A stretch of 64,000 bases of DNA from Owenia fusiformis (taxonomy: Eukaryota; Annelida; Polychaeta; Sabellida; Oweniidae): positions 4,426,571 to 4,490,570 of the forward strand of contig CAIIXF020000011.1 in NCBI GenBank assembly GCA_903813345.2, read 5' to 3'. A program made the position numbers and the translations under genes. The notes beneath the pieces are model-generated. The model did not search any database and was not told the DNA's origin. It saw only the letters and a program-made list of their open reading frames with translations. Positions 36,513-47,683 of the stretch are shown here, piece after piece; the first letter of the stretch is position 1; every line of letters starts with the position of its first letter.

Positions 36513-36650
36513 TGGGTTTCATGTATCTCAATAATTTCTCAAATTGTGTAAATGAAACCCCTTCCTCCTGAAAGAGAAAATTCTTGGGATTAAGGAAGGA
36601 ATAACATTTACACAATTTGAGAAATTCTTGGGATACATGAAATATGAATA
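36513..36650. repeat. Inverted repeat with about 40-bp arms
   Basis: TTTCATGTATCTCAATAATT...TCTCAAATTGTGTAAATG is mirrored by CATTTACACAATTTGAGAAA...TTCTTGGGATACATGAAA, with an about 55-bp loop. MITE-like. It lies just left of the large element at 36789. Confidence 0.75.
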
Positions 36651-36784
36651 GGACAATAGCTAAATGGAACACTCTACCAGGTGACATGTTAGACTGTGAC
36701 AGTCATAGTAGTTTTAAATCATCATACTATGCCTATGTCAATAACTGCAATTAAATAGATGTGTTTTTAATATAGATCTATGTT

Positions 36785-36788
36785 TTAA
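36785..36788. repeat. TTAA target-site duplication, left
   Basis: TTAA immediately outside the left inverted repeat of the 10.4-kb element; matched by TTAA at 47168-47171. Confidence 0.8.
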
Positions 36789-36802
36789 AGTGCTAATTCG
36801 GT
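36789..36802 (+). repeat. Left terminal inverted repeat of the Kolobok-like element
   Basis: AGTGCTAATTCGGT, identical to the reverse complement of 47154-47167. Similarity stops after 14 bases (left continues GTTCC, right AAATT). Confidence 0.85.
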
Positions 36803-36958
36803 GTTCCTGGGGTCAAAATACAGTTTTTCAACATTCAGATAGATCAAATACACTACTCACGTTTCAACCCAGATGCAATCACAACATATTTTTGTATAAA
36901 TGTGAAATTTGATTCGGTTTTTTCCAACATCCGGGAACTTCAGTTCAGAGGTCATCCG

Positions 36959-36966
36959 TGACGTCA
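36959..36966. promoter_or_regulatory. CRE-like palindrome TGACGTCA, left promoter
   Basis: A perfect CRE/ATF consensus 52 bp upstream of the P2X7-domain start codon. The other gene of the element has the same octamer (47015-47022) 71 bp upstream of its start. Confidence 0.45.
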
Positions 36967-37017
36967 CGTTCAGTAACCTAGTAAAGCCGCCATTGAGAAA
37001 AGTATTTATTTTCGAAA

Positions 37018-37803
37018 ATGTCCGCACTAAACGATGAATATCTCGATGTTGAGGAAATGGATGCGTATTACCGCGAAACAGAAGATCAAGGAGAAGATGA
37101 AGAAGAAGATGAAGAGGGTTTCGTAGGTACCTTGGGAACTTCGGTGGAGATAGGAGAAGTACGGCCGTACATGTTCGATCCTGAGGCGTTGCCCGGGCGA
37201 AACAACCCCCAAGACGAAGTGGTGCAGCCTGAGTATGAGGATCCAAACTGGAGAAGTAACCTGGACGATTGGTGTACTTGTGGGAATTGCCAGGTTGAAG
37301 AGAAAGTCTCTGAGAGAGTTTGCTGCCAGGAGTCGCCTAAATGCAGAGACAAACTCAGTGAGGAAGTCTGCCGCCCATCGTCAGGACTGACCATTCCAAG
37401 GGATTGCATCACCCAGCATCGTGGTTTTGGACCGGTTTGCTTGGACAATGATGTTCTGTCTACAGCATGGAGGCAGTACAAAAGCCAATACCCTGATGGA
37501 TATGAGGGTCCCTACGACAAAAAGATGAGACACATAGCCTACCGTCAGCACCAGCGATGGGTACATGGGTTCCTTGGGAAGGATGTGAGGGTGGTGATAC
37601 CATCGTGTGCAACATCGTGCATCAGGGCACACTATCCACCCCCGGGATTAGAGGAGGATTTCCGTTTTACTGGGTTCTCGTATGGAGACAGCAGTCCAGA
37701 TGCAAGCCCAAGGTCGAGCCCAAGATCAAGTCCAAGGCCACAAGCACATCTTTTGATGAACATTCTCGTCTTCATTGCAATATGCATCTACCTGTTTGTT
37801 TAG
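37018..37803 (+). CDS. P2X7-type cytoplasmic (ballast) domain protein, single exon, 261 aa, probable tail anchor
   Basis: An uninterrupted frame from GAAAATGTCC to TAG. Residues 1-34 are acidic (EDEEEDEE). A Cys-rich core follows: DWCTCGNCQ (84-92), CC at 102-103, then Cys 109, 118, 130 and 141. Next come MRHIAYRQHQRWVHG (170-184), PSCATSC (195-201) and the aromatic FTGFSY (217-222). This order matches the zinc- and nucleotide-binding cytoplasmic domain at the C-terminus of vertebrate P2X7 receptors (compare its CC..C..., LRHCAYR and PSCC segments). No P2X channel part is present, so this is the stand-alone domain, known from many invertebrate genes. A Ser-Pro-Arg repeat (229-241) leads to LLMNILVFIAICIYLFV at the very end, a likely C-terminal membrane anchor. 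It lies inside the 36789-47167 element, 229 bp from its left end. Its role in the element is unknown. Confidence 0.85.
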   Translation: MSALNDEYLDVEEMDAYYRETEDQGEDEEEDEEGFVGTLGTSVEIGEVRPYMFDPEALPGRNNPQDEVVQPEYEDPNWRSNLDDWCTCGNCQVEEKVSERVCCQESPKCRDKLSEEVCRPSSGLTIPRDCITQHRGFGPVCLDNDVLSTAWRQYKSQYPDGYEGPYDKKMRHIAYRQHQRWVHGFLGKDVRVVIPSCATSCIRAHYPPPGLEEDFRFTGFSYGDSSPDASPRSSPRSSPRPQAHLLMNILVFIAICIYLFV

Positions 37804-39070
37804 AACTGCAGACACCATCTAGCTTAGCAGGCCATAGGTCTCTAAGCCCCTTTACTTCAAAGAGAGAAATGAGTTTATGAATAGAAAAATTGCATTTATT
37901 GCAAAAAATGTGTAAGACAGGGAATGAATGTTATCACTATGCTTTACTAGTCTAGCTGATATGAGTGTGAATGTGTGCATGACAAAACAAAAGAAATCCT
38001 AAGTCTTTTTCACTAAGATAAAATTTTTAATCAATGAAAAAACAGGTCCAGGTCAGATTCTATAAGAGGGGTCTAATTTTTCAATGGGGGCTCTACATTT
38101 TAGCATTGGAAAATACTAATTTGATTTTGAAACTGCTCATTTGATAAAATGCCCTACTGTACTATGAATATTACTGTCATTTCCATGTCCATCACATTGA
38201 TTTTCAGAAGACTACTCAAAAGGGTAATCCATATCTCATGTAAAATTGTAACTGAATCAAACCTCATAATTCACTCAAACAATATAATCACACATAAGGG
38301 GAAATATTACTTGATCATTGAATTTATTTTCATAACTCATTTACAATTCTATCAATAACATTTTCATGTGATTAGCCTTTGTTTTGAAAAATTCACCAAA
38401 TAGCCACAAAAAATTCACCAAATACATGGCAAATAGCCACAAAATTTCAGTAGTTTGATATTTAACAAGGCTATAAATGCAAAATGTCACCACTTATTTG
38501 TTACAGACACTGACTGCATACCATCGAAGACTGTCCACTTTTTGTTGGAAACTATAACAATATGTCAACACTTTAGGTGGTGACATAAAAATTTATATTA
38601 TCAATTTATTGCTCAATCTATTGCTTATTACAGTACAATTACATAATACTGTAATACGTTCATTCAATATAATGGTACTATATCTGTATATAGGTGGTTC
38701 TGTATACTGTGTTACTGCATTTCACATTTTATTTCATTTTAGTGCAATATTACAAAAACTACAAAATGTTGACAACTAGTTGTAAGTTATCCCTTTTTAG
38801 ACATGGTAACAACTTAAAATTGTTACAGATTATAAGCATTTCCATGGTAACAGATATTGCAAATAATGTGGTTTACAGTAAATCTGTCAAATTAATTAAG
38901 CTCAACATTACTTGTTCAGTCTAATGGTTCATTGCACATCACATTGAATTTCATTTTATTGCAACATTACAAGACAAAGCAAAAGCGCTTTTTTAAAGTG
39001 CACTAAAAAATTCTACAAGCTGCAAACCAGTTGAACAAGTTATCACTTTTTGACATGATAACAAATTAAA
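37804..39070. other. Space between the two convergent genes of the element
   Basis: AT-rich, no recognised gene. It should contain the 3' UTR of the P2X7-domain gene; no canonical AATAAA was spotted close to its stop. Small ORFs here (38149-38358, 38694-38924) are unremarkable. Confidence 0.4.
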
Positions 39071-39533
39071 TACTGTAAAACAGGTATTATTAGCGAGGGG
39101 TAATTGTTAGCGATTGTTAGCGATCGCTATAGTTTCGCTAAAAATTCAATTCGCTAAAATAAACCGGGCGCTAAAATTTGCAAATTCCCGGGAAACTACA
39201 AGAATACTAGTGCTCGATTTCTGGTTTAATTTGAGATTAGTTTGGACCGAAAAATCAACGATTTTAAATGCTACCGTGATTTTGTGATTAGTCAGATGAG
39301 ATTACAGTAGTTTGGACCAATACCATGTGCGTTAGAAGTCTTACATTTTGATAATTCCTCTGTCATGTCCGTTATTCATTCTTCTGCCATAAATGATGAA
39401 ATTTCTAATGCATTTCGCTAATTTGATTTTTTAAAGATTAATCTTCATTTCGCTAAAATTTCCCACGCTAAAACCCCCTAAAATTGAAAAATCGCTAAAA
39501 TTTCCCGGTGTCAAAATTACCTGTTCTTCAGTA
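39071..39533. mobile_element. MITE with TACTGTA...CAGGTAWTWTTAGCG ends
   Basis: The left end TACTGTAAAACAGGTATTAT and the right end inverse TACTGAAGAACAGGTAATTT form imperfect inverted ends. The inside is packed with TCGCTAAAA words. It lies about 40 bp beyond the transposase stop codon, so probably in or next to its 3' UTR. This repeat style (gcgaaatt-rich MITEs) is common in bivalve genomes. Confidence 0.65.
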
Positions 39534-39573
39534 ACTGGAACCAATAATTTCAAATGTTTACAGAAAAAAATAA

Positions 39574-42500
39574 CTAGTCCACAAATCTATCTGGAAATCT
39601 TGTAAAAAGTCTATTGTATAAATCATGTTTATCTGCTTGGGGGTGATCATTAGATGGTGCATGAGGTGTACTAGCTTTGATGGTCACCTCCCACTGTCTT
39701 GCCTCATTTTGGTTAAGAACCAGCCTGAACACTTCAGTCATCAATTCTTCATTGTATACTGGAATCAGTTAGAAAGTATGATTAACATTTTATAAGAATA
39801 TACTTCAATGGTTATGGCAATATTTCTAGACACTCAAATCCAATACAATATTGAGGTTAACAACTTACTGTACTCCTGGTAAATTTTGACGCTATAAAAT
39901 TTCGCGATTATTCAAAATTGCAATTTTGCGGCTATTTAATTTCGCGGATTTGAGTTGATGACATTTCGCGAATTGCACAAGTTGAATTTTTTCATATCAA
40001 AAGTCCCGGGTCAAATTCCGGGGGATTTTAAAGATAAATTTCGTGATGATAAATGTTCGCGACTTTACTGCATTCGCGAACAAAGCGAAATGAAATCGCA
40101 CGCGAACAATACCCGGAGTACAGTATATTTTTGAAACCTTTTGAACATCAACTTACTGAATGTAGGCTTGACAGTCAATACACGTAGTGTTGGTTCCCCA
40201 CTCTTTGCCCTTGGATATGTCACATTAAGCTGCTTCTCCCCCCTCTTGTTTTTGGCTATTGCCCGCCCAGCATTTTCATTATAGTACATTGCAGCAAGGA
40301 GCACTCTAAAATAAAAAAAATAATAGAAGTTGCAATTATTATCTTATAGAAAATTGGTAGCTTCAAACAAAAAGAAAAAACAGAGTGAACAGAATTGCAC
40401 CTTTGAATAGAATAGACACTTTTCAGGAAAATCCATGATGCCTTAACATTTACCCAGAATGATTAAAAAACTAGGCCTAATCAGTTTTAAAGTTTCATAT
40501 GTAGAAAGATCCTTGAACATTTCAGATTAATTGCTCAAATTGTTTGGCTGGAATCTTGGGCTTGCCCATCCTGGCAATCTGATCATAATGTAGCACCCAA
40601 GATAAAACTGTAGTGGATACATAAAACAACATGTGATGTTTACCCAAGTATGGATCATCATTAATAACAATAACACATGACATTTAAGATTTTGTAACAT
40701 TTTATAAACCCCTTATGTTTATAAATTATAATTTGTCACATTGCTATATGCCTAAGAAGTATTCGGTATCTTTGTGAAAGATGACTTCTTTCTTATGAAT
40801 GTATTTGGTGTGTTATTGTTAGATCTTCTTAGAGTCCCATCAAATCTACCAAACATTATACGGGTATTGTCACAATAATTATGGCCAAACCCCCAAGCTA
40901 ATCAATAATAATCAATAGGTTAACCTGCTTGTCATCCCTGCATAACCAAAGTGAATCATTTTGGGGGCAAAATGATTCACCACACTGTGGAATCCTTCTA
41001 AGGATCCGGTCTGTCCTACTGGGGACATTCTTCGCACATCAGCAATGAGTCGTTTGGAGTCAAGAACCAGCATTAAATCTTCATACTGCTTTGTTCCTAA
41101 AAATGAATAGATGCTTCATTATTAATTAAACAATTTAGAAATGAAGTAAAGTATGAATATCAGTAGACAGATAGATAGACATGGAACAAACCACTGCATG
41201 TTACAGCATGAATAAGACAAGACATGAGGCAAGCTAACTTGGTAATATTTTACAAACCTATTTCCCAAATGAAGACACAGTGAAAGTCTATTTGTGATAT
41301 AATAATCCTTTGAACCTCAGATTTCCTTACTCATTTAGATTCTTCATCCCTACTTATCCTAACTACATCATCATAAAATAATTATTATATAATACAATAA
41401 TAATTATAATAGAGTCTAGTTTATTTACAGTATTGGTATTACCTGGAGTCAACCAACGTTTAGGGTTTTCAATCACTCCGTGCTGACAAGTTGGGAATAT
41501 ATCTGTATCATGTCGGTGGATGTTTGCCACATGGTTGAACAGACTTCTCCATTTCGCCTCGGCTAGGTCACCATCCCCTCGACTTGTGGTTCCGCTCCAA
41601 TATAGGTGTATGATTATGGCCTTGAACCAAGCTCTGAGGTCCTCAAACTTCTTGGCTAATATTTCTAACTTCTTTTTCAGACCTAAAAATTAAAATTGAG
41701 CAAATAATAATGCAAGATGAATAGCACCACAGAGGGTTTAGTACTGGACTCACATGACACAAATATATTTTAAAAATAATATCTGGCAAGCTATTTTGAA
41801 TTTGAAATAATTTCGCTCCTTTGAAAAAAAATTTGGTCAATTTGAACTAAGTTGAAAAAAGGGTGACCTTTTTTGACCCTGAGAAGGTCATTGAAGGTCA
41901 AATCTCAAATCCAAAGTCAGATTTGAACTCATGAGAACTTGTAGATGATTTTGAAAAAATTGGTGAAATTGAAGCAAGTTGAAAAAATACCTTTTTTGAC
42001 CTTGAGAAAGTCGAGGAAAATTTGGTCAATATGAAGCAAATTGAAAAAGACCTTTTTGACCTTGAAAATGTCATTCAAGATCAAATTTCAAAATGAAGTC
42101 CGGGATAATAAAAACTGTGTTGTGGCCATTTTGAATGTGTCAGCCATCTTGGGTTACTTACCTTTTGAGATATGCCAAATATCGAAATAGTGGGTGACAC
42201 CGGCCCAGTTCTCCCGTATCCACTTATTGATTTGTGGGTGTCTATCCGTCACAAGATTTAAAATACGGATCTTGCTGGTCCCGTCTTCCAATTTAGAGCC
42301 ATCTAGAAGGGTGTTCTTGCATCTCTTTAGTCCTTCGAGCTCCATATGATAGGAGCTTTTGACCTCATTTTTCTGCAAACATATACAAGAGGTGCACATA
42401 AAGTTCTTGGAATTACTGTTCTTTTTATCATGTGTCTTGGGGCAAAGTTAAGTTAAACTAATAATAAAAAAAACAGCAACTCCAGGGAGTAGCAAATCCT

Positions 42501-45500
42501 ATTGAAAAATTCAAGATGGCTGCCAAAAAACTCATAAGATCCAATCAAGCACTAGTTTGCTCTTGCATTTCTAGCTTTGAACAAATATAATGAAAACCTC
42601 ATATATATATATATACTGCTGCGAATTTTGCTTCATTTACAGAACTTTGCTGCAGATATCAAAAGAATATCTTACCTGAACCAACTCTGAGCAGATGACT
42701 TTGTTCCTTCCCAAGTCAAGAAAGGTGTAGGAGCCATATTTGGCAGTGTGCCCCATGCTGTCACAACGAGCATCGCCAGCAATTGTAGTCTCTTCTGCTA
42801 CTGTTGAGATCAGTTCATGTTGTTTCCTTCTCCAAACAGTTTGTATTGCACCATGTAAATATTTCCTCTGATGATCATAGAATGTAGTGACGCAATAGCA
42901 TCGAACATTCATGAACTGGAAAAGTCTCATCACCTTTGATGCTAAACTGCCAGAAAACAGGATAGCTGAGGATAACACTAAATTCCCCTTAGGAATGCGT
43001 CCAACCATAGGTTGCGATTGCCATTCATAGCCTCTGCAACTCTTATTGGAACACACTTGTTTAATGTAAACCATTGTGCCCATGAAGCGTTTAATTATCG
43101 GAATGGCATCTTTCCTACATATCATGCAGATCGTTAATAACTTCATGAGCATAACTTCGTAAACAAGGAATATACGATTATCATTCCTCTCTTGTGCACT
43201 TTCCTCTTTCTTCACTAGCTTCTTCACATGCCTGAAATTTTAAGTAGAATAAAAATATAACAAGGCAGATTTTATATGGTTCCTCATATAATATATATTA
43301 TTGAGTTACGATATGGTTAGAGCTGATATGACTAGGAAATGGCATTAAAGATAATACAGGTAGCTCCACTAATATCTGAGTTTACATACAGACTGATCAC
43401 TTTGGCTTGTTTGGATAATTACACTAACATTCGACACCTGAATTAAAGTCACAGAAATCAGTTGTGAATTTGGGAGATCATAGTGTAAACTTACATTTTC
43501 TTCATTGGGCGATCGGGGGAATCATTTGCACTTGTTGAGCTGCTTTCTCCAGACACAAAATAGGTACAATCAGATGCATCATCATCACTGTTTATGTCAT
43601 CAGAGTCCTCACATTTAGCATATGGGTCCTTATCTAGGATATCCTGCAGAAGTGTTGGACGAATAACTGACCTACGAGGTCTAGGAGGTAAAGGCATTGA
43701 AGGAGGCACACTATCTTGATCACCATTGTCTACAAGCATATTTATCATATACAGTAAATAGGTAGGTTTTATCATCCAGATAAAAGAAGTTATGGGAGAC
43801 ATCATGAAAACTACAGAAGAACAGGTGCAACTCATCTATATGGAAAATGTGAAAACAGCAATTTGCCAATAAGACATTAGTCTATAAAGTTTTCTGGCCA
43901 GAGTGCATGTTCAGAATGTTGCTGCATTCCTCAAATTCAGTGAGATAATTCAGAAAAAATTCAGAAAATGTTCTCTTTTTTTTATACATTTTACAAAACA
44001 AATCTTCTCACCTGTCTTTTCTAGGCACATTAAGTGCACTCTTTGTGCAAAACTGAAAGAGGTAGACAATGTGGGGAAGGAGTGATTCTTATTTGAAAAA
44101 TAACATATGGCTCAATTGAGGAATGCAGCATAATTCTGAACATGCACCCTGTCCTTAACCAAATTCCATAGATGGTAGTTCAAGTATAAAAAATTCCATT
44201 TTTTAAGAAAAACAAAGCATTAACATGCACTAATAAATAACATGCAGAATGTCACCACCTGCCATAGTTATTGGAAGTTATAAGAAATTGTTATAGGCAT
44301 CAACCGCCAGACACCAACTGCCGTCACAAAAAACACATACCATAACATATGTCTAGAGGTAACAAAAAATCCCTTTAGAAAAATTACCTTCACATGTGTC
44401 TTGGTCGTTAGGCTCATCAGTATAGTCACTAGCACAAGTCTGTGTCCCACTGCATTTATAATTTTCCAACCAGAGAAGAGGAAGTGTTATGGGTTTCTGC
44501 AGAAACAAAATATAAAAATATAAGAATTTTAGGGAATTACTTTGAATCAAAATGGTAAAAACAATAACCCTATAATAATAAACATTATTTAATAGATAAA
44601 TCATTAAAAATAACTTACATTTACATTTGATTGTAGAGAGACAGAAACCACAGCCACAGGGGGAATTACATTCACATTCACAGGGAGAACATCCACAGGG
44701 GGAGCTACATTAACAGGGGGACCATCCACAGGGGAAACTGCATAAACATCCATAGGGGGAACATCCACTGGCGGAACTACATTCAAATCCACAGCGGGAC
44801 CATCCACAGGGGGAATTGCATCAACATCCATAGGGGGAACATGCACTGGGAGATTTACATCCACAGGGGGAACTTCATTCAAGTCCACAGGGGGACCATC
44901 CACAGGGGGAGCTGCATGAACATCCATAGGGGGAACATCTACTGGGGGATTTACATCCACAGGGGGAACTTCATTCAAGTCCACAGGGGGACCATCCCCA
45001 GGGGGAGCTGCATCAACATCCATAGGGGGAACATCCACCGGGGGATTTATATCCACAGGGGGAGCATTCACAGCGGGAACTACATTCAAACCCACTGGAG
45101 GACCATCCTCAGGGGAAACTGCATCACCATCCATAGGGGGAACATCCACTGGGGGATTTACATCCACAGGGGGAGCATTCACAGGTGGAACTGTATTCAC
45201 ATCCACAAGAGGAACAGGATTCTCTCTATTCTCCTAAAAAAAAGTTAGAAAAACATTATCATAAAGTGAAGGGGGAAAATACACTCTAGTAATAGTTCTG
45301 ATACTCAATAACAAAATATATGCAGTATGCACTAATATATACAGTATTGTCTTTTATAAACATTTCTTTAATTTATTATTTTAGTTCCTCTATTGATCTC
45401 CTCTGTATTCTTACTATTCAATACATTATCATACAGGGCAGGGTAACACAAAAAATATTTCAATATTTTGATCTGGGAATAACTTTCTAAATAATAGTCG

Positions 45501-46944
45501 AATGTACATCAATCCACATTTTTTGGCTGAAGCAAGCAATTATAGCATATGATTGAAAATAGCAAAAATCTTGTCAAATTAATTCAACATGAATTCATAA
45601 CATGTTCAAGTTATTGAGAGAGTTAATTCTTGTGTCACCCTGTACATAATTTGCATGCATAAAAGAGAAATTATATTCATTTAGAGATTGATTAAAAACC
45701 TTATCCGTGAAAAAATAATTATTGCGGATTTGTTAAAATTCTCAAGCAGAAATAGACTTCTCCCATCTCTTCATTTTTTCAATTACCAGGCATGAACAAT
45801 CATTTTTTAATAACTTACATTTCTCTGATGAATGGAAAGATCCAAAGGTTCAAGTTGTTCTGGTACATTTAGAGAAGCACTGGCACCTAGTGCTTTTTTG
45901 GAGCGATTCAAAGATACCCTCAGCTGCAATAGATAAAAATTCTAATCTGAGCTTACTGTACAAGTACATTATACATACTGGTTCGGCCCTCGGTCCAATA
46001 TTTCACTATATTGCCCGCAGAAATGACGTTAATGTACTATTATCATGATCATGGAGATCAATACACTTTACTCAGAGCTTACATTACTGTTACGTTTTAC
46101 ATTGTAGTTTAACACGGGAATTAATTTTTTTATTATCAAGGAAACTGCCGAAGATTGCCGTCGACACGTTCATGATATTTCCAAGTCATATTTTAGACAT
46201 TTACCCTTGCAAGATCAAGCTTTTTCACGGTATTCTCTCGTCTGGCTTTCTTTCTTGGTGAGCACTCTGGAACATCTTTTGTCAGTATACTAGGCACTGC
46301 ACCTGGTTGAATTCTCAGCTGACTGAAAAATATTGTCAAATGTCAAAAGCCTATTTATCTGGAAATATCTAAACAAAAACCTGAAAAATCAAATATTTTG
46401 GGGGGATACAAAGTTGGGCCCAGCCCAGCTTTCAGAAAAAGATCAAAATATATGCCTATTTTTAGCCTTCCCCTTGTCAATTTCCAGATCCGGTCGTTTC
46501 AAGAGAAAGTCCGTGTGAAAAAGAATAACCTAACTGTCTGAGTCAGTTTTCAGTCAATCAGTCCATGTCATTCGGTAGACCCAGTGGAAAACCAAACCCT
46601 CTTGCCGATTGATTTTTTTCGTTTTTATGCAAAATATTTCATTCTAGTTAATATGTACGTCTACATACAAGTACTCTCTATAAATGTATCGTTACTTACA
46701 TTGCAAAACCAGATCTTATTTGCATCAACTGGCTCGAATCATAACATCGGTCTTCAAAATGATCCGAACAAATTTGGGTCCTTGATTTCTGTGCTTGCTC
46801 CGCACTCAAGTCCCATTTTCTGGATTTAAGCACAAAACTACGCCATAGCTTGGCTGTTTTTATATCCTTTGGAAATGTATGAAGTGTTACGGCATTATTT
46901 TGCTTTGTATTAGAACATCCCCCGACTACACAGCGTAAAACCAT
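39574..46944 (-). CDS. THAP-domain, DDE-like (Kolobok-type) transposase, 12 coding exons, 979 aa
   Basis: Coding exons (minus): 46944-46700, 46322-46205, 45923-45819, 45233-44619, 44496-44388, 43729-43495, 43231-42676, 42372-42162, 41682-41443, 41096-40925, 40305-40157, 39758-39574. All junctions are GT-AG, the phases agree, and the total is 2,940 nt ending TAG. Residues 1-about 95 form a THAP zinc finger: C5, C10, HTFP, LWRSF, CSDHF, and the AVPSIL signature at the start of exon 2. Residues about 157-361 are a PPVDV/PPMDV repeat. Residues about 477-960 resemble a family of THAP-linked transposase proteins: GDARCDSMGH (D629 or D633), VTDRH (D704) and YYNENAGRA (E879) are my candidates for the DDE triad. 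Expected to bind the element's ends and cut and paste it. It runs inward from the right end of the element. No frameshift or stop was found, so the gene may be functional. Confidence 0.85.
39866..40125. mobile_element. MITE in the last intron of the transposase gene, 260 bp
   Basis: TACTGTACTCC at 39866 is inverted at 40115-40125 (GGAGTACAGTA). The inside is rich in TTCGCG words. It sits in intron 11 (39759-40156), leaving the splice sites intact. Similar in style to the element at 39071-39533. Confidence 0.8.
43899..44160. mobile_element. Diverged relative of the TTAA palindromic MITE, in intron 5
   Basis: GTGCATGTTCAGAATGTTGC...TGCATTCCTCAAATTCAGTG on the left and CTCAATTGAGGAATGCAGCA...GAACATGCACCCTGTCCTTAA on the right match the family at 18299-18675, including GTGCACTCTTTGTGCAAAAC. 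Located between exons 5 and 6 of the transposase gene. Confidence 0.7.
44619..45233 (-). repeat. In-frame coding repeat (PVDV/PMDV) filling transposase exon 4
   Basis: About 96-nt (32-codon) units such as NPPVDVPPMDVDA..PPVDGP, five to six copies with small changes. Repeat length and exon length are multiples of three, so the frame survives expansion. The opposite strand also reads open (44841-45248, IHRGNIH words), which is only a shadow of the repeat. Confidence 0.85.
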
Positions 46945-47014
46945 ATCGGTAAGATAAAACTTCAACTGGCAGCCATTGTTATTCCAAGCTTCATCCGGGT
47001 GTGTTTGCTGATCG

Positions 47015-47022
47015 TGACGTCA
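47015..47022. promoter_or_regulatory. CRE-like palindrome TGACGTCA, right promoter
   Basis: Perfect CRE/ATF octamer 71 bp upstream of the THAP-transposase start codon; the P2X7-domain gene has the same site at 36959-36966. Confidence 0.45.
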
Positions 47023-47153
47023 TCTTTTTTTCCCGGGAAATTTTATTATACCTGTGATTAGCATTCGGAAGGGCAGGTGAAAAAAGGGGTATGATATTTC
47101 TACTTACCAGTATCCACCAAATCGATTTTTGTAAGAAAAAAAACTAATAATTT

Positions 47154-47167
47154 ACCGAATTAGCACT
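47154..47167 (-). repeat. Right terminal inverted repeat of the Kolobok-like element
   Basis: ACCGAATTAGCACT, the exact inverse of 36789-36802, followed by TTAA (47168-47171). Confidence 0.85.
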
Positions 47168-47171
47168 TTAA

Positions 47172-47683
47172 TGTAAAAGGTCCCCAGTGCACAGCAACAA
47201 GCCTGAACTACTGGGAAAGAGGGGAGATGTCAACATGGAAGCCTGACAGTCTCCCCAGGGTATTTCAACACAAAGGGACTTCCTAGGGGGGTACACGGGC
47301 CAACCAGGAAGGTTCCTTTCAATTTCAAAATGAGTTGTAAACCATAAAGATCAATTTTTAAATTATATTCTATTCAAATTCTATCACTGGTTAGTGTTAA
47401 ATTATACATCTGCTTCATATGGGCTTATTAGCCTTTTGCTGATAATTGACATAGACATAGAATATACTTTTCCATATATTTTTGCACAATGGTCTCCTGA
47501 TTTCTTATTCTTGGGGTTCTACTGATGCAATAAAACCACTTGCTATCTATTGCAAGACTTATGCCTGGCACAACTGTCACCATGTTATTAGGTGTTTTTA
47601 AGTTTCGCAAGGATCCTGCCATGACTGTGGTATTGTTATCGTGAAAGCCTGGTATAACCATGACATAGAGGTTCTTATATGAG
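47172..47683. repeat. Dispersed repeat sequence
   Basis: CATATATTTTTGCACAATGG and AAGACTTATGCCTGGCACAA...GATCCTGCCATGACTGTGG recur at 51890-51990, 50690-50780 (inverted) and about 53485-53510. The stretch 47555-47605 is the uninterrupted version of the site where the 50790-53475 element inserted. No gene. Confidence 0.6.

Follow-up and report, generated by a model that had tools for sequence, protein, structure and literature searches.

A probable Kolobok transposon between two TTAA copies carries a KolX gene, related to the P2X7 tail, together with its THAP transposase gene

In a 64,000-nucleotide stretch of contig CAIIXF020000011.1 (positions 4,426,571 to 4,490,570 of the forward strand), referred to here as the window, a gene for a protein resembling the cytoplasmic ballast domain of the P2X7 receptor is found next to a THAP transposase gene, both between short inverted ends. 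The question raised by this locus is whether the receptor-like gene is a working part of a mobile element, a passenger of it, or a host gene caught between repeats. We consider it very probable that window positions 36789–47167 hold a complete cut-and-paste Kolobok transposon of the Kol0/KolX type with the P2X7-like protein, KolX, as transposition helper. The initial annotation had regarded this pairing as undescribed, and in this respect it has to be corrected. In the parts of their paper considered here, Kojima and Bao (2022, PMC9587614) report KolX as the second protein encoded by Kol0 Kolobok elements, similar to residues 476–595 of P2X7 with the ballast fold, and they state that ballast proteins of diverse animals had previously not been recognised as parts of Kolobok families. 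The idea of a mobile source for the P2X7 tail is in print there as well, as a proposed fusion of a P2X4-like gene with KolX. The parts considered of an earlier survey by Rump et al. (2020, PMC7016195) describe ballast proteins across Metazoa without a link to transposons, and the word stem 'transpos' is absent from its text. The window element is accordingly a new example of the known KolX-Kolobok pairing and not the discovery of the link.

The element shows well-defined borders. A perfect 14-bp inverted repeat, AGTGCTAATTCGGT, is located at both ends (36789–36802 on the plus strand, 47154–47167 on the minus strand), flanked by TTAA target-site copies at 36785–36788 and 47168–47171 (no strand), and TTAA together with AGTGCTAATTCGGT forms a perfect inverted repeat of 18 bases. 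With up to two mismatches allowed, AGTGCTAATTCGGT matches the window only at these two positions, both exactly; in a shuffle control, 3 of 100 shuffles gave at least two such loose matches. The termini AG..CT correspond to the 5'-RR..YY-3' form of Kolobok. The KolX and transposase genes are convergent, each starting near one end, at 229 and 223 bases inward, respectively. Comparison of both 1-kb ends revealed one further inverted match, an 18-bp subterminal repeat with 16/18 identical positions, and no direct repeat longer than 14 bp. Inverted ends, TTAA flanks and two convergent genes, as given in the initial annotation, were each confirmed in the window sequence, and the assignment to the TTAA-specific Kolobok transposons is supported by the target site, the ends, the THAP domain and the DDE-type motifs described below.

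The flanks of the element, 36539–36788 and 47172–47421, belong to a different, abundant repeat family, and the left part also matches itself in reverse. For an empty-site search both flanks were joined at one TTAA and the genome was searched with the product, the best 40 of 959 candidates being scored. Among the 48 matches listed, 38 run across the junction, two of them with 99% identity over all 500 bases. Five empty sites were read, and all five exhibit one TTAA at the position of the left target-site copy and no insert at the junction. The empty site L050 is identical to the joined flanks in 120/120 bases, and one of the five contains a 13-base gap near the junction. Since these sites hold a single TTAA without insert, the target of the insertion was one copy of an older repeat family. 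Judged by this insertion footprint, the window element is mobile. A look for empty TTAA sites in other individuals had been proposed in the initial annotation; the empty sites found here are other copies of the host repeat and not alleles or orthologous sites.

To place the two genes in the genomic context, the genome was searched with the KolX protein (41 matches), the corresponding Pfam model (51 matches; 0/14 control genomes) and two transposase queries (27 and 36 matches). Clustering gave 59 KolX-like and 25 transposase loci. A KolX-like locus lies within 12 kb of 14 of the 25 transposase loci, compared to 0.07 expected by chance, and all 14 pairs are convergent as in the window. These pairs include four copies of one family as well as the copies C2 and C483, so that nine groups remain if B, C and C2/C483 are each counted once. 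Co-occurrence within 12 kb, which the initial annotation had proposed to check in other invertebrate assemblies, is seen here within a single genome, to which the count refers.

Four copies with both genes represent family B, on C3 at 4.19 Mb and on C1 at 18.76, 42.40 and 43.46 Mb. They span 9.7–11.1 kb, carry TTAA + AGATGT at both ends in 4/4 cases, and their homology ends at the TTAA on both sides, followed by unrelated flanks. Blocks above 2 kb are 97.5–99.8% identical; compared to the C3 copy, five of seven blocks above 1 kb show 99.1–99.6%, one 97.5% and one, of 1.2 kb, 95.4% identity, and short internal-repeat blocks show 81%. KolX was read in all four copies with nearly identical proteins, the transposase exons match in 4/4, and for the THAP exon the C3 copy was read. 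Because the copies are near-identical, a recent movement of the family is suggested. Each copy pair differs by only 0–1 synonymous and 0–1 nonsynonymous codons, too few for a selection test. All four KolX proteins begin with MGNNSS (L005:1692-2381 for the C3 copy), a start that we take to be myristoylation-like and from which no conclusion is drawn.

Family C comprises two copies, on C9 at 27.10 Mb (9,845 bp) and on C4 at 28.77 Mb (8,388 bp), both with TTAA + AGTGYYTGTAA on both sides. The C4 copy is decayed, with a stop in the KolX match and an interrupted transposase exon. Three families, A (the window element), B and C, thus show KolX and transposase enclosed in a single TTAA-bounded unit, and together with the recurrent pairing this bears out the initial annotation in assigning the P2X7-domain gene to the transposon. 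A THAP exon occurs in six of seven elements examined, namely A, B (C3 copy), C9, C4, D and E, and not in F. With 99.1% identity over 9.85 kb, the C2 and C483 copies possibly represent a single insertion seen in two haplotypes. For D (C2:23.10M), TTAA-flanked inverted candidates were obtained only with 5–6 mismatches in 16, and no borders are claimed; one strict scan, the only search made, revealed no ends for E and F.

The KolX gene of the window element (37018–37803, plus strand) is a single exon coding for 261 amino acids. Its open reading frame matches the Pfam family P2RX7_C (PF20478) with E 2.5e-14, and of the solved P2X7 structures 6u9v is matched best (E 2e-6). On the basis of these alignments KolX is a P2X7-ballast-fold protein. 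Apart from PF20478 no Pfam domain was found in the 261 residues, neither a P2X channel domain nor a His-Me nuclease. The ballast core, residues 84–220 (37267–37677, plus strand), contains the conserved cysteines and the R-H..Y..R residues. At the C-terminus a hydrophobic, tail-anchor-like helix, LLMNILVFIAICIYLFV (residues 245–261; 37750–37800, plus strand), is predicted. With a mean hydropathy of 2.86 it appears at residues 243–260 of a single-sequence structure model, the predicted local distance difference test (pLDDT) score being 75 for residues 241–250 and 96 for 251–260; the model as a whole has a mean pLDDT of 41 and is poor outside the helix. This tail is unchanged at the protein level in the otherwise decayed copy C271 and was not seen in the KolX stretches read from B, C9, D and E. 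The text of PMC9587614 nowhere uses the word stem 'transmembrane'.

The transposase gene starts at 46944 and was modelled as 12 exons on the minus strand with GT..AG introns, giving 1,006 amino acids without a stop; the exon joins are a model from genomic sequence. Exon 1 (46700–46944) codes for the THAP DNA-binding domain (PF05485, E 4.6e-12; E 1.5e-12 for the full-length model) and exon 2 (46205–46322) for AVPSIL at residue 90, a variant of the AVPTIF box following the THAP fold. After exon 3 (45819–45923), exon 4 (44619–45233) contains an in-frame PPVDV/PPMDV tandem repeat, with periods of 39, 96 and 111 bp among others. Exon 5 extends over 44388–44496 and exon 6 over 43495–43810, the latter with a second possible start at an alternative acceptor (43729). 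The catalytic motifs were assigned by eye: the first D (GDARCDS) in exon 7 (42676–43231), the second D and the DIWH signature in exon 8 (42162–42372), an H2CH-type zinc finger in exon 9 (41443–41682) and the E (GSLEG) in exon 10 (40925–41096). Exon 11 (40157–40305) and exon 12 (39574–39758, stop codon included) complete the gene. The resulting order GDARCDS, TDRHPQ, DIWH, H2CH-like finger and GSLEG, with D656, D731, DIWH at 752, HVANIHRHDTDIFPTCQHG at 809 and E872, fits the Kolobok motif descriptions in the parts considered of PMC6004289 and PMC9587614, the former also listing the THAP domain with its AVPTIF box. Between the first and second catalytic D no CCHC zinc finger was seen by eye.

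Relatives of the window family are found mainly through their ends. The 18-mer of TTAA and AGTGCTAATTCGGT occurs 37 times exactly in the genome and, with up to two mismatches, 119 times compared to 61 for the reversed control. Thirteen copies read around exact ends are gene-free short derivatives of 250–844 bp, in which an A-type right end is combined with a diverged left end. The near end shows 70–74% identity to the right end of the window element in 13/13, and the far part matches its left end in 12/13, nine times over 116–122 bases (70–74%) and three times over about 30 bases (90%). A TTAA follows beyond the near end in all 13 and beyond the far end in 12. L036, with two mismatches and TTCA at its near end, was excluded from this group, and L044 and L045 were left out as end fragments. 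Because such gene-free derivatives exist, the ends alone appear to suffice as transposition substrate, and both proteins could act in trans. What comes nearest to a second copy is a damaged left part on C271, with 86% identity over the left 283 bp followed by an internal deletion. Its outer flank reads TTCA instead of TTAA, C271 is absent from the right-end matches listed (best 40 of 69 candidates scored), and it is not counted as a complete copy.

Several observations weigh against a complete transposon with KolX as its helper. The same ends, for which the initial annotation had proposed a genome search, were detected on the short derivatives and on C271, but no further full-length member of the window family was found in the genome, and among 100 of the 119 matches listed no convergent end pair at element length occurs besides the window copy. 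The derivatives also indicate that KolX is not needed in cis. For 45 of the 59 KolX-like loci no partner transposase was detected, many of the unpartnered loci being fragments and the transposase loci originating from only two queries. A Pfam catalytic domain was not found in the transposase, for which THAP alone is listed at E up to 0.1. Over the five families compared, the distances of transposase and KolX correlate weakly (r 0.66; 9 of 120 permutations as high), with element E adding only 104–107 columns to each of its pairs, and co-evolution of both proteins is suggestive only. As the synonymous distance dS is saturated, selection on KolX was read from raw proportions only; between families the nonsynonymous proportion pN is 0.23–0.45 and the synonymous proportion pS 0.76–0.89 in 10/10 family pairs, a clear amino-acid constraint that itself counts in favour of the explanation given here. 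Finally, no experiments on the function of KolX were found, and PMC9587614, in the parts considered, gives homology only.

The derivatives and the unpartnered loci would also be expected if the P2X7-domain gene were host cargo, captured once and carried passively without use to the transposon: short derivatives have spread without it, their ends appearing sufficient as substrate, and most KolX-like loci stand without a detected transposase. We nevertheless regard this alternative as very unlikely. The same gene occupies the same convergent position beside the transposases of five divergent families, it is under amino-acid constraint, and in the parts of PMC9587614 considered Kol0 elements are reported to encode it as their second protein. 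Since pairing and convergent layout persist over five families whose proteins are 38–68% identical, KolX as a helper fits better than KolX as cargo, and of the two roles left side by side in the initial annotation the helper is the better supported one.

Two ordinary host genes between chance inverted repeats would be in line with a terminal inversion of 14 bases only and with the lack of a second full-length copy, but this explanation has practically no probability, being refuted by the single-TTAA empty sites, by family B, whose four copies carry both genes at TTAA sites unrelated to each other, and by 14 pairings against 0.07 expected. A piggyBac-type element, likewise TTAA-specific and in a few families equipped with a KolX-like part (PMC9587614, parts considered; one such neighbourhood, L048, was met here), is hardly conceivable, given a transposase with THAP, DDE with DIWH and H2CH-like finger, no DDE_Tnp_1_7 match in the 1,006-residue model at E up to 0.1, and ends of the Kolobok form.

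The window element can be compared with several known systems. According to the parts of the literature considered, the Kol0 group with the type element Kolobok-1_XT shares TTAA duplications, 5'-RR..YY-3' ends, a DDD/E transposase and a second protein with ballast fold; the window element was set beside Kolobok-1_XT by description and not by sequence, and differs from the Kol0 descriptions in the 12-exon transposase model, the expanded PPVDV repeat and the hydrophobic KolX tail. KolobokP, of the same superfamily, has a His-Me finger nuclease and long terminal direct repeats, whereas the window element has no such direct repeats and a ballast protein in place of the nuclease gene. A CCHC zinc finger, which follows the first catalytic D in KolobokP/E/D/5, was not seen in the window transposase. 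With the P2X7 ballast and nanor/ZCD, KolX shares the pattern WCxCGNC..CC..CIT..RHxAYR..PSC..IR..FP..GF; compared to P2X7 it has no channel part, an extra Cys141 and no equivalents of R574 and K583. An N-terminal THAP domain and catalysis of the DDE/RNase H type are common to the P element and THAP9. The P element carries a GTP-binding insertion domain inside its transposase, in contrast to the separate accompanying protein of the window element.

From family knowledge, the THAP/DDE transposase would bind sites near both ends, cut at the TTAA boundaries and reinsert the element at another TTAA, a step of which insertion footprints are seen here. KolX might assist in end pairing, cofactor binding, localisation or stability of the transposase. 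Candidate binding sites are offered by the subterminal inverted repeats starting TGACGTCAC, at 36959–36976 (plus strand, 171 bases inside the left end) and 47005–47022 (minus strand, 146 bases inside the right end). The P element transposase has internal 10-bp binding sites close to its two ends (PMC7776569, parts considered), so that transposase binding is one reading of these repeats. The TGACGTCAC sites are symmetric and lie immediately upstream of both genes of the window element. Alternatively, they may be CREB-type promoter elements, one for each gene. In family C, TGACGTCA lies 158–160 bp inside all four ends of the two copies, with TGACGTCAT at one C4 end. In 11 of the 13 short derivatives, those tested, the left site lies at 160–163 bp with one mismatch in 11/11 and the right site at 144–146 bp, exact in 10/11. 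TGACGTCA is absent from the four family B copies, where the best match has two mismatches; shuffles of the left 400 bp of the window element contain it exactly in 0.9% of cases.

Conserved residues of KolX were counted in distinct aligned pieces from fetched loci, not all 59, some sharing one locus and many chosen for their likeness to the window KolX. The zinc-ligand cysteines of the 6u9v alignment are kept in 85–100% of the pieces covering them: Cys 86, 88, 91, 102, 103, 130 and 197 in 10/11, 11/13, 12/13, 13/15, 14/15, 17/17 and 20/21 pieces, respectively. The extra Cys141 is kept in 15/16. Rat R546 has its equivalent in 19/23 pieces, H547 in 20/24, Y550 in 20/22 and R578 in 18/21; for R574 and K583 none of the covering pieces has one (0/21 and 0/20). 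In the parts of Rump et al. (2020, PMC7016195) considered, the ballast fold of rat P2X7 is reported to bind guanosine nucleotides through R546, H547, R574, R578 and K583, of which only R546 and R578 are kept beyond deuterostomes. If the host is a protostome, H547 would be more widely spread than reported. In the P element, which is a THAP/DDE relative, positioning of the ends depends on GTP in the insertion domain (PMC7776569, parts considered). Because four of the equivalents, R546, H547, Y550 and R578, are kept, though R574 and K583 are not, there are hints that KolX could be a detached guanine-nucleotide cofactor subunit of the THAP transposase. We consider this idea, which was not found in the parts of the literature considered, unlikely. 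If true, the nucleotide pocket of the ballast fold would have arrived later in the P2X7 channel and the GDP/GTP site would be a transpososome relic.

The vertebrate P2X7 tail would be a host-captured copy of a KolX-like protein, as proposed by Kojima and Bao (2022, PMC9587614, parts considered). To their homology-based claim this genome adds direct evidence that a gene resembling the P2X7 tail belongs to a mobile Kolobok unit, by single-TTAA empty sites, a near-identical four-copy family with both genes, and gene-free derivatives, according to which the ends seem to be sufficient in cis. Empty sites, in-genome statistics, gene-free derivatives and residue counts were not found in the parts of that paper considered. 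The element also provides a ready experimental system for the role of KolX and hence for the original purpose of the P2X7 ballast with its nucleotide site, and makes the presence of a zinc- and nucleotide-binding ballast in a receptor tail accessible to testing.

Some minor observations concern the remaining KolX-like loci. Ten of the 41 KolX-protein matches are clustered at G000 C3:0.38-1.85 Mb, all in the initial 1.9 Mb of a large sequence. A pattern was matched by 36 stretches of viral contigs, but none of these was confirmed. At L048 (G000 C2:33363200-33369700), tandem KolX-like exons (FRHAAYRQFVLWEW..PSCC) stand beside a piggyBac-type transposase end (DDE_Tnp_1_7, E 2.6e-5, 24.1 bits compared to a cut-off of 22.4), consistent with the remark in the parts of PMC9587614 considered that a few piggyBac families carry a KolX-like part. 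At L049 (G000 C8:2487200-2493700), duplicated KolX exons (CSCLNCRN..CC) share their strand with a Kolobok-like transposase stretch (GDARMDSPGWNAKY and FNDIWH by eye, without Pfam match), in a tandem and not a convergent layout.

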